From NCBI RefSeq assembly GCF_000400935.1, contig NC_021280.1:930001-994000 (forward strand): DNA of 64,000 nucleotides, written 5' to 3'. Under the pieces are notes generated by a model, which was given only the letters and a program-made list of their open reading frames with translations, made no database searches and was not told the DNA's origin. Each line of letters begins with the position of its first letter. The stretch's first letter is position 1. Both the position numbers and the translations under genes were made by a program. Shown piece by piece: positions 13,610-18,852 of the stretch. The stretch is from Spiroplasma chrysopicola DF-1. Lineage in GTDB: Bacteria; Bacillota_I; Bacilli_A; Mycoplasmatales; Mycoplasmataceae.

Positions 13610-14856
13610 AAAATAGACACATAAAAAGTTACTTATGTGTCATAATTTTATTGAAAGGTATTCTTTTATTATGGGAACAAAATGATTTACAAAAAACGAA
13701 AAACTTAATATTTTAAAATATTACAAAGAAAATGGTTGAGCAAAAACAATTAAAAAATTTGAAATTTCAACACCAACTTTATCTCGTTGAAAAAAGGCAG
13801 TTAAAATTAGTGGAGAAAAAGCGTTAGAACCAGGAAATGGTCTACAATCTAAAGGAATTCGCCGACCAGGGCGTCCAAAAAATCTTAATTTTGAATTAAT
13901 GACAAAAAAAGAATTAATTGAGTATATTGAAATGATTCAAGATGTAAAAAAGTCCTTGCCCAAATCGAAAAAGAAGAAATTTCAAACGATTTGGTCCTTA
14001 AAGAAAAAATACAAGATTAAATATTTATGCAAAATTTTAAATGTTTCTAGAGCTGGTTATTATAAATGATTTAATGCTGGAATGAAACTTTTTAATAAAT
14101 GGAATAATACAATTGCAAAAAAAGTTAAAACGTTATTTCTAACTTTTAAGAAAATTTATGGATATAATATGTTAACACTAATTATTAATAAACTATATAA
14201 TTGAAATTTAAAACCTCATATTGTCTATAGATATATGAAAAATATGAATTTAAAATCAATTATTAGAATAAAAAAATTAATTATAAATTATCTTCTGGTA
14301 ACAAAAGACATGAAAATATCATGAATCAAGATTTTTCAACCACAGATATTAATCAAAAAATAGGAACAGACATAACATATTTATTAACAAGCGACAAAAC
14401 CTATTTTTTATCAATAGTAAAAGACTTTCATACTAATGAAATTTTGGACTACCAAATCAGTAATAATTTAGAAAAAGAATTTGTCTTTAAAAACATAATT
14501 AATTCTTGAGTAAAAGCTGGAAAGCCATCAACTTGAGTTCTACAATCAGATCAAGGTTTTCATTATACAAATTCTGATTATGAAAAATTATGCAATTATC
14601 TTGGAATTACGATTTCAATGTCCAGACGTGGAAACTCTTATGATAATGCCCATACAGAATCATGATTTGGTACTATGAAAACTGAATTTTTATATCATAT
14701 AAAAAGAAAAAAACGAACAGCCAAATGAATTATTGAAAATCTACCTAAATATATCTATTTTTACAATAATTTTAGACCACAAGCCAAATTAAAAGGAATG
14801 AGTCCTGTTCAATACAGAAAATCATCCCTTCAAGTAACTTTTTAATTGTCTATTTT
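13610..14856 (+). mobile_element. IS3-family insertion sequence, about 1.25 kb
   Basis: Terminal inverted repeats of 25 bp lie at 13610-13634 and 14832-14856 (AAAATAGACA..., 23 of 25 positions matching). They enclose one transposase coding region. No clear target-site duplication is visible. Confidence 0.88.
13671..14845 (+). CDS. IS3-family transposase (frameshift inside catalytic part)
   Basis: The first frame (13671-14363, 230 codons) holds an N-terminal helix-turn-helix (residues 1-60), a linker, and the OrfB-type HTH segment ending near VSRAGYYKW. The DDE catalytic domain continues in the -1 frame to the TAA at 14845 and keeps the acidic residues (GTDITYL, LQSDQG, HTESWFG). The switch coincides with seven A's at 14270-14276, placed exactly as A_AAA_AAA relative to the codons. 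A programmed -1 slip would give about 391 residues, the normal IS3 OrfAB length. A one-base deletion in a formerly intact gene is equally possible, because IS3 frameshifts usually lie nearer the OrfA/OrfB border. Confidence 0.82.
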
Positions 14857-14891: not shown

Positions 14892-17621
14892 TTATAGCCA
14901 CCGTTTAAAAAATTTGATATACAACATCTTGATGCTTTGACTCATAATACAATAACCAAGAATCAAGGCAGTAAAGAAAGCAAAATAAATTGCAGGTAGT
15001 TTAACTAAACTTAAATTAATTGCTAGTGGGGTAAATGGCAACGCAATTCCAATCGTAATAACTGAGAACGTTGCCAACAATAATTGTCATGACGCCATTG
15101 ATTGGAAGAATGGTATTTTTCTTGTTCGATACATTTGGACAATTAAGGTTTGTGTTACTAATCCTTCAACAAATCATCCTGTTTGGAATAACATTACTTG
15201 GTCTGAACTAATACTACTTGGATTACTTAAAACTCCAAAGTAATAGCCCATCAAGACAAAGGTTAGAATGTCAAAGATTGAGGAGACTGGTCCGTTGATA
15301 AAGACAAACGGTAAAATATCTTTTGTTGTTCACCGCTGAGGTGTCTTTAAAAATTCCTGGTCAACCTTATCAAAAGCGACCGCTAATTGTGACATATCAT
15401 ATAATAAATTTTGAAATAGTAACTGAATTGGCGCCATTGGTTGAAATGGCAATCAAGCGGAAGCAACTAAAATACTTAAAACATTCCCAAAGTTTGATGC
15501 AATGGTAATTTTAATATATTTTAGAATATTTCCAAAAATTTTCCGCCCTTGAATAATTCCTTTTTCTAATACTAATAATGATTTTTCTAAGAGAATAATA
15601 TCAGAAGCTTCCTTAGCAATATCGGTTGCATTATCAACCGAAATTGAAACATCACTTTGTCGTAAAACTGGAGCATCATTAATCCCATCCCCCATGAATC
15701 CAACTGTATGACCGTTTTGTTTTAGCGCCGTAATAATTTTTGCTTTTTGTAACGGATTTAATTTGACAAAAATATTATTTTTTTCAACAACTTCTCGTAA
15801 TTCAAACTCACTTAATTTTTCAATGTAATCTCCACTAACTAATCCTTTAACATGTAAGTTAACCCGCTCACAAATGGCTCTTGTTACTTGCTCATTATCC
15901 CCAGTTAAAATTTTTAAATCAACCCCATTTTTATGTAATAGTTGAATCATTTTAGTTGCTGAAGGTTTTGGTTTATCTAAAAAAGAAGCAAACCCCATAA
16001 AAATTAAATTACTTTCATCCCCCGTTGAATAGTAACTATCATCGTTATGCCCAGCGCTATAACCTAATCCTAAAACACGTAAGCCTTGGGTGTTTAACTT
16101 ATCAGCACTACTTTCAATCATTCGTAAATGATCATTGGTTAATGGTTGCACTTTCCCTTGGTAATAAATTTGTGTACAGTTTTTAACAACCTCTTCAATC
16201 GCCCCTTTACAAATTAAAGTATGGTCCCCTTCTTCATTAGAAACAACAACAGTTAATTTTCGACGATTAAAATCAAAGGGAATTTCATCAATTTTAGTAT
16301 AATGCTCTTTTAATAAACTAATATGATTTTTTTCAACATACTGAATAATTGCTTTGTCTAAGGGATTCTTTAACCCCGTTTGAAAATAACTATTTAAAAA
16401 TAAGTAATTTAATAATTGTTCATCATTTTTATTATCTAATAAATGATAATCAATTAATTCAATATTATCATTTGTTAATGTTCCTGTTTTATCAGTACAT
16501 AAAATATCAATCGCTCCTAAGTTTTGAATTGATTCCAATTTTTTAACAACAACTTTTGCCTTACTCATTTGGCTAGCTCCCCGCGCTAGGTTTGATGTTA
16601 CAATCATTGGCAACATTTCTGGTGTTAAACCAACAGCAACAGTAATCGCAAATAACAGCGCTGAAATTCAATCATTTTTTGTTACCCCATTAATAGCAAA
16701 AACAATTGGTACCATTACTAACATAAAGCATAATAGTAATCATGTTGTTCGTTTAATCCCTTTGTTAAAACTAGTTGGGGGTTGTTTTTCTGAAATTGTT
16801 TTTGAAATAGTTGCATAATAAGTATCTTTCCCAACCCCAACAACAATTCCAATTGCACTACCAGAAATAACACTAGTACCAGTGTAGCAAATATTTTGTA
16901 GTTCTAACAAGCTTGGTTTAGATGGATTATAATTCGCGTGTTTTTCAACGGGCATTGATTCCCCTGTTAAACTAGCTTGGTTAATAAATAAATCATTACT
17001 TCATAGAATCCGCACATCAGCTGGAACAAGATCCCCACTTGATAAATAAATTAAATCCCCACGAACTAATTCATGAATTTCTAATTCTTTTGCTTCACGA
17101 ATTAATGTTGTATTATTTTTAACAGAAATGTCACTAACTTTTTCATCATCTTCTAACCGAATTACAGTAATTTTACTACTTACTAATTCCGTTAGTTTTT
17201 TTGTAACTAAGAAACTACGAATATCTTGAATATACGAAATTGTTGAACTAATAATAATCATGGTAAAAATAATCCCTGTCGCAATTAATTCAAACTTATC
17301 TCCAGCCATTAAGAAATAACTAAGAAGGTTATAAACAGCAATTGCTGTTAAAACAATATTAAAAGGATTTAATAAAACTTTTAATAGTCGCAAAAATCAA
17401 TGAAACTTAATTTTTTCTTGAGAATTATCCCCAAACTTATTTCCAACTTCTTTTGCGTCTTCATAGTTTAATCCAAACTTGGTAATTTCAAAATGTTCTA
17501 ATATTTCTGGCTGTGAAAATTGTGAAACTGCTTTAATTTCCTCTGTTTTAACAAAGCCAAGATCTTTTTGATGATTTTTTGTTTTTCCTTTAAATTTGAA
17601 TTTCATAACTTTTTTATCCAT
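14892..17621 (-). CDS. mgtA: Mg2+-transporting P-type ATPase (P3B)
   Basis: A 909-residue membrane ATPase that imports Mg2+. Visible motifs are NPFNIVLTAI near the first helices, the actuator motif TGES, TPEMLP in the membrane core, the phosphorylation site CTDKTGTLT (Asp about 377), GDGINDAP, and six C-terminal helices including NLLYDMSQ, which is typical of MgtA. The length matches E. coli MgtA (898). Eleven or more UGA-Trp codons are read through. It is convergent with the small His-rich gene; their shared terminator has been split by an IS. I see no recognisable Mg2+ riboswitch upstream. Confidence 0.95.
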
Positions 17622-17950
17622 TTGAAAGTCTTCTCTCTATTTATCAAATAACAACCCAGTAAAAAAATCACTTTTATTAAACTTTTTTTATTTTAACGAA
17701 AAAAACTAGGGAAAGCAAGAATTTTATTATTAATTATTATTAAAGGAGAAAATTAAGAAATAAAAATTTTTAATAATTTTATTACTTAGACAAAAATATT
17801 TTACTCTAAGATAATTTTTGATAATAACATTTGTTAAAGCATGATGAATAAATGATTTTAAAATCTAATAATTATACTTTAAACTTATTGGATAAAAGTT
17901 AAAATCAAATTTCATATAACTTATAGTCTTACTTATTTTAACACTTTGGC
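17622..17950. other. Intergenic region upstream of mgtA
   Basis: About 330 nt of AT-rich sequence. It contains the mgtA ribosome binding site (AGAGAGAAG) and presumably its promoter. I see no gene, no M-box-like conserved segment and no strong hairpin. Confidence 0.5.
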
Positions 17951-18515
17951 TTATATATTATAACTACGTAAAATTAAATAGATATTTCCAACATTATATT
18001 TTGTTGTAACAAGAGCACTTAAAAAAATTAAAGGAATTCCAAAAAGGAAAATATATAGTCATCTATTTGTAACTTTCTTACTATCTATCAGAAAATATCT
18101 TGAAATCATTACAAATAAAGCCACACCATTATACGTAAAAGTATAAGTAAAAACCTTTTCATGCATTGACAATCCCAAAAAAAAAAAAAAAAGTCATTAA
18201 AATTAATGGCTTGGGCTTTATAAAAATTATTGTCATCAACATGTCCATAGTAGACTTCAACTTTTCATGAATTAATTTCTTTCATTGTGAATGTTTTACT
18301 TAAATTATTAATAACAGTACTACGAATTGATGGCATTAACCCATCATCATATCCCCGTAAACTGTTCAAGGCTCATTTGTTTTTTTCAAAAAGAAATTCT
18401 TCGGTAATTATTTTCGCAACGTCTTTTGATTCATGCCATAAAAAATGGTACCTAAAAATAACAAAATAATTACGATTGGAAACGTTAATGAAACTATTGT
18501 AACTATTTTTTTCAA
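17951..18515 (-). pseudogene. Frameshifted membrane protein gene with a 16-base homopolymer
   Basis: A TTG start at 18515 after GGAGG opens a hydrophobic N-terminus. The frame breaks at a run of six T's after about 25 residues. A second frame then codes a well-formed outside domain (WALNSLRGYDDG, WKVEVYYGHVDD) up to a 16-T run (coding strand), after which a third frame codes two membrane helices (ALFVMISRYFL, FLFGIPLIFLSAL) to TAA at 17951. Protein-like composition persists on both sides of each break, so this is one roughly 190-residue gene disrupted twice. A 14- or 17-T run would repair the second break. Function unknown. Confidence 0.7.
18177..18192. repeat. 16-A homopolymer inside a coding region
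   Basis: Sixteen consecutive A's on the plus strand (T16 in the coding sense). By far the longest homopolymer noticed in the window, at a point where the reading frame of the surrounding gene changes. Confidence 0.9.
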
Positions 18516-18555
18516 ATGGTACCTCCATTTTTCATAAGCGTATTACGAAATAATT

Positions 18556-18852
18556 CTATAAGTTGGTAATAAAATTAATGATTCCCTCAGCATTGTTACT
18601 TACATATAAATCTGATGGTAAAATTTCAATTTTTACATTTTTTTGATCTTTAAAAATTGTGGTAATTTTGTCTTTTAAATAACCAATTTGTGGTGCTAAT
18701 AAAACAACATCATAATGTTCCGAAGTTAATTCGTTAATATTAACAGCCAAAAACTTAATATCATTTTGATGAGTTGTTAAAAATTCATTAATATTTGTAA
18801 CAATCATCTTAGTACTAATTCCTGCTGAGCATACTAAACAGACATTTTTCAT
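18556..18852 (-). CDS. PTS system EIIB component, lactose/cellobiose type
   Basis: A 98-residue cytosolic phosphocarrier. The N-terminal motif VCLVCSAGISTKMIV contains the Cys expected to carry phosphate, followed by the VVLLAPQIGYL segment of the family. GGGGGA lies upstream of the ATG. No IIA or IIC partner lies next to it: downstream is the broken membrane gene at 17951-18515, whose segments do not look like a IIC permease. The sugar is therefore unknown. Confidence 0.85.
   Translation of the reverse strand: MKNVCLVCSAGISTKMIVTNINEFLTTHQNDIKFLAVNINELTSEHYDVVLLAPQIGYLKDKITTIFKDQKNVKIEILPSDLYVSNNAEGIINFITNL

Follow-up and report, generated by a model that had tools for sequence, protein, structure and literature searches.

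The closest described systems include the vlp genes of Mycoplasma hyorhinis and sabA of Helicobacter pylori, in which the tract lies outside the -35/-10 spacer. Homopolymer switching is known in mycoplasmas, and according to PMC10502178 the vlp tract is a homopolymeric A tract in the promoter. The locus analysed here differs from vlp in that it has no such promoter, its run being located inside a coding remnant. With gene decay by deletion, as it occurs in mollicutes and other host-associated bacteria, it shares a truncated gene, a frameshift, intact syntenic neighbours and an intact copy of the gene in the closest relative; it differs from ordinary decay by deletion in that the join is placed within a homopolymer whose length class (15-18) is otherwise intergenic in this genome. 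Our literature search on homopolymer phase variation in Spiroplasma revealed no apparent study of such tracts, judging from the listings, and the accessible part of PMC9666726, on S. mirum, contains nothing on homopolymer phase variation.

The window, i.e. the whole 64,000-nucleotide stretch of DNA analysed, contains a breakpoint within a run of 16 T (T16), unrelated pieces downstream of it, a gene (hereafter referred to as X) the remainder of which is missing, and a second break. We consider it very likely that this locus is a gene-decay scar, generated by deletion or rearrangement in a surface-protein cluster and composed of fragments from two or, more probably, three different genes.

The T16 run and the remnant of gene X

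The 16-base homopolymer reported in the initial annotation is present on the minus strand (A16 on the plus strand; Table 1), and it is flanked, as also reported, by coding-like sequence in different frames, corresponding to the minus-strand ORFs 18109-18528 and 17951-18178 (translation table 4). The frame arithmetic proposed there (14 or 17 T's) agrees with the frames of these ORFs. The numbers of A/T runs in the window drop steeply with length: 117 of 7 bases, 17 of 8 and a single one of 9, followed by a gap from 10 to 15 and the one run of 16. With T16 left out, Markov models of the window predict 0.12-0.5 runs of at least 14 per 64 kb, and against this expectation the T16 run is an outlier that is not due to chance; the same models also predict many runs of 9-13, which are absent from the window. 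The run was also considered as the promoter tract of a 71-codon ORF starting 10 bases past it, a possibility rejected for lack of a ribosome-binding site and of a -10 box in place.

Table 1. Features of the locus and its neighbours, in window coordinates.
Feature	Position	Strand	Evidence
Downstream neighbour, P-type cation ATPase, intact, syntenic	14892..17621	-	ORF; 862/887 residues same in G008; dN/dS 0.04
443-base island in place of the ~5.6 kb that G008 has here (remainder of X, then genes for two lipoproteins, the first of GH123 type, and a membrane protein)	17734..18176		Alignment and G008 gene content
3'-end piece resembling the GH123-like gene G000:798344-800476	17871..17957	-	58.6% over 29 aa, E 3e-8, z 14 vs shuffles
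Piece similar to the interior of an acyltransferase-3 (PF01757)-like membrane protein, within the 75-codon ORF 17951-18178	17993..18148	-	30.8% over 52 aa, gapless, to G000:424586-425629 of the same genome
T16 run, join of the X remnant with unrelated sequence	18177..18192	-	G008 similarity ends inside the run
Remaining 5' part of X, coding for a putative exported or surface protein (roughly the first third of its 389 codons; one-base break near the start)	18193..18528	-	88% DNA identity to intact G008 X up to the T run
T6 run (A6 on the plus strand), frame break in the X remnant	18440..18445	-	One-base length difference vs G008 in the alignment
Upstream neighbour, PTS lactose/cellobiose IIB-like, intact, syntenic	18556..18852	-	PF02302, 31.5 bits vs cut-off 23.6

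The 112-residue piece upstream of the run matched its own genome (G000), in which the remnant is the sole match to X, and 8 of 39 relatives, all from the same genus; X was assigned to no Pfam family, and yielded no credible NCBIfam match and no solved relative (best E 0.44). Its closest relative was found in genome G008 (84% protein identity), where X is an intact gene of 389 codons. Three genes come after it there, encoding a GH123-type lipoprotein (PF13320), another lipoprotein and a membrane protein, and this cluster is located between the same PTS-IIB and P-type ATPase neighbours as in the window (the ATPase family was named from its sequence, on the basis of the KTGTLT motif). The window aligns with G008 across PTS-IIB and X as far as 18187, a position within the A run at which G008 has A6, and the alignment picks up again at 17733, on the ATPase side, such that about 5.6 kb of G008, comprising the rest of X and three genes, corresponds to about 0.45 kb in the window. 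An IS3-type transposase (named from its sequence) adjoins the ATPase gene and is split over two overlapping frames (13635-14845), a state that looks like ordinary frameshift or decay.

The X of the window carries several disabling lesions: truncation at the T run, the one-base difference at T6, and a C-terminus that is absent from the genome. The break at T6 noted in the initial annotation is thus a real difference from G008. The last 272 residues of G008 X gave no match in the window's own genome, a single contig with 99.9% completeness, even at E values up to 1, whereas the same query, as a positive control, matched all four relatives searched (97% identity in G008, 41% in G005 and in G010, 37% in G004). 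The membrane protein of the G008 cluster also gave no match in this genome, in a search run without a positive control.

These observations bear on the translational phase variation initially proposed, in which slippage at T16 would switch the frame of one membrane gene, with a second switch at T6. The length of the run, far beyond expectation, flanking frames that fit some tract lengths, and the precedent of homopolymer switching in mycoplasmas mentioned above are all in favour of such a switch. However, the piece upstream of the run matches the first third of X, and that downstream is unrelated to it (z -0.18), so the two sides belong to different gene families and do not form the single membrane gene that had been proposed. 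Furthermore, the downstream ORF is an internal protein piece without a start region or C-terminus of its own, and the X orthologs have no long run at the corresponding place: G008 has A6, and the X loci of seven other relatives contain no run of at least 8 (a truncated second copy of X in G011 lacks the place equivalent to T16). As the halves come from different genes and the remaining 272 residues are absent from the genome, no tract length could give X back or switch it on again. Phase variation at the T16 site is therefore unsupported, and we regard it as very unlikely. The initial wording, "phase-variable or decaying", can be retained in its second part, given the truncation, the T6 break and the absence of the rest of X, but not in its first, the two sides being from different genes.

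The degree of selection on the remnant fits less readily. Over 81 codons, comparison with G008 yielded a dN of 0.044 and a dN/dS of 0.11, within the range of the neighbouring genes (PTS-IIB 0.20, P-type ATPase 0.04, TyrRS 0.08), and this value shows no sign of relaxed selection, a feature expected of old pseudogenes but not obligatory in them; as far as decay is concerned, it is compatible with a recent inactivation only. Since the ratio resembles that of a living gene, selection would have acted on X during most of the period after its divergence from G008, and X would have died recently. Taken at face value, however, the low ratio, which also counts in favour of the frame-switching reading, could mean that the remnant still acts somehow. 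Among our results, this is the chief one that, taken alone, does not argue for decay.

The island downstream of the run and its possible origin

The 75-residue piece downstream of T16 scored at the level of shuffled sequences against X, and gave z values between -1.2 and 0.6 against X and the three other proteins of the G008 cluster, so we rejected the possibilities that it represents the terminal part of X or the membrane protein of that cluster. By contrast with these shuffle-level scores, z values of 8.4-10 (0/500 shuffles) were obtained with three acyltransferase-3-like proteins, from the same genome, G008 and G010; those of the same genome and of G008 match PF01757 above the cut-off. The piece itself was not recognized above the cut-off in the Pfam search, BLASTP against the G008 acyltransferase-like protein gave a weak match (34% over 35 residues, E 8e-4 in a single comparison), and the assignment is based on 31% identity over 52 residues. 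HisKA_7TM was not accepted as the family of this piece (E 0.0056; 17 bits against a cut-off of 28.6).

Directly after the acyltransferase-like piece come 29 residues that match the C-terminal portion of a 711-codon protein of the same genome, with a DNA match at 17842-17948 (76% identity over 107 bases); this protein resembles GH123 proteins (z 20-23), though it is unrecognized by Pfam. The island therefore appears, from these similarities, to consist of pieces of two genes other than X, one acyltransferase-like and the other GH123-like. A genus-wide DNA search with the island gave one good partial match, at the GH123-like gene of its own genome. When an intact source of the downstream piece was sought in 298 genomes of the order, matches were obtained in five, its own included, and these were weak except for the piece itself; plasmid records contained no match. 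Elsewhere in the genome, at G000:419556-425629 (L069), there is a cluster encoding a GH123 protein, a large membrane protein and an acyltransferase-3-like protein, gene types whose pieces also lie in the island.

A mis-join at the homopolymer, the true sequence containing an intact X, would also produce such a junction. Long homopolymers are classic weak points for joins, and a single assembly was analysed. However, the 272 missing residues are nowhere in the one-contig genome, the 443-base island has no more than short, partial matches in G008 and the other members of the genus, and the T6 break is independent of the join. We therefore consider an assembly or sequencing artefact to be decidedly improbable. 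It could alternatively be envisaged that the T run is a recombination site at which segments are reversibly exchanged, and that the off state was sequenced, as a second tract (G000:535417, L043) also lies where similarity to G008 ends, and the island is made of pieces of surface and membrane genes. However, these pieces are themselves truncated, no recombinase was found among the ORFs listed between the PTS-IIB and ATPase neighbours, and, with the rest of X absent from the genome, a rearrangement would have nothing to bring back; we regard a switch of this type as extremely unlikely.

For the decay scar, we infer the following order of events. X would have lost its last two thirds in its own lineage, where the next three genes of the G008-type cluster are absent as well, and its remainder would have been joined, inside the T run, to leftovers of acyltransferase-like and GH123-like genes. 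The codons flanking the join are rich in T on either side and probably acted as microhomology, and the run may have grown by slippage to 15-18, the length of nearly all long A/T runs in this genome, unless one of the join partners already had a long run. What is left of X is broken near its start by the one-base difference at T6. The locus would then be dead, recently so, and would not switch. Besides the low dN/dS, the points against this scar are the small size of the GH123-like piece (29 residues), the weak acyltransferase assignment, and the analysis of a single strain of the species, which leaves a small probability of an assembly error.

Long A/T runs in the genome and upstream of X orthologs

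A search of both strands of the genome gave 94 matches to A14 and 202 to A10. There are 26 A/T runs of 15-18 (one of 15, ten of 16, thirteen of 17 and two of 18), which explain 198 of the 202 A10 matches and thus leave at most four runs of 10-13. These runs are spread from G000:345669 to G000:1090185 (L033-L057), and in G008 there are 15 that measure 14-17, with no run of 10-13. From a reading of the flanks, 25 of the 26 are intergenic, the T16 of the window being the only one in a coding remnant. Sixteen runs lie upstream of lipoprotein genes or of one paralogous family: nine precede MKKLL...C lipoprotein genes (two of them before the same gene; the one protein tested passes LP_plasma) and seven precede a paralogous family starting with MENKVQ or similar. 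Six of the latter seven runs (T15-17) are followed by TATAAT at a distance of exactly 12 bases, outside the spacer, an arrangement which, as a comparison of sequences, resembles that of sabA, although H. pylori belongs to a different phylum. The remaining runs are found, for example, after a terminator-like hairpin and before alaS-like and ffh-like genes (named from their sequences).

When the 26 runs were compared with G008, with part of its sequence covered, an answer was obtained for 15. G008 has a run of 16 or 17 at or beside the matching place for nine; for four (L038, L039, L048 and the second of L052) both flanks align and the A/T run of G008 is of 7 or less; and for two (L043 and the T16 of the window) the similarity to G008 ends at the run. 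The L043 run is a T17 after a terminator-like hairpin. This comparison suggests that the runs are either short or close to 16-17, even where they are not shared.

Upstream of X itself, a TTGA/TTG hexamer and TATAAT enclose a T run in G010, G011 and G005 (L027, L028, L025 and L032), with predicted -35/-10 spacers of 17, 15 and 9. The second, truncated copy of X in G011 shows identical printed flanks, with a predicted spacer of 6, such that the two copies of this genome differ in tract length, and the homopolymer in the spacer concerns four copies of X in three species. This layout was not found in the other 6 of the 10 sequences searched, including G008 and the window; in G004, a T16 also precedes X, without the exact arrangement of hexamer and TATAAT. 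The layout in the three species is similar to that of the vlp genes and would be that of a slippage-controlled promoter, as a candidate architecture recognized here from sequence alone. The frame around the conserved motif of the X ortholog is short in G009 (L030, 105 codons) and G003 (L031, 136 codons), and X seems to be broken in these species too.

Homopolymer slippage as a switch, suggested initially for the window, thus finds no support at that site, but it fits the other tracts of the genome and those of the X orthologs as a candidate architecture. Homopolymer phase variation elsewhere in the genus appears plausible from the placement of these tracts. A broader generalization, which we put forward tentatively and consider possible but rather doubtful, is that the Spiroplasma genomes of this group contain discrete A/T runs at a species set-point (16-17 here and in G008, with almost none of 9-14) that act genome-wide as slippage-tuned promoters of lipoprotein and paralogous membrane-protein genes. 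The presence of T16 in a dead gene would be accounted for by a mutational set-point, and also by inheritance from one of the join partners.

Implications for homopolymer phase variation in Spiroplasma

The locus itself carries little weight: a false candidate for phase variation is removed, and it illustrates how two dead genes can be mistaken for a single one when they are read through a homopolymer. The window site is an ordinary case of gene decay and not an on/off switch, although long T runs elsewhere in the genome occupy positions at which switches could lie. It is this genome-wide class of long A/T runs that deserves further study, and it may outweigh the locus in importance, as the bimodal distribution of run lengths, together with the placement of runs in promoters of relatives, renders homopolymer phase variation in Spiroplasma testable. 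If the proposed generalization were true, a T16 of the same length in the dead, unselected X would imply that the set-point comes from the replication and repair machinery and is exploited by promoters.
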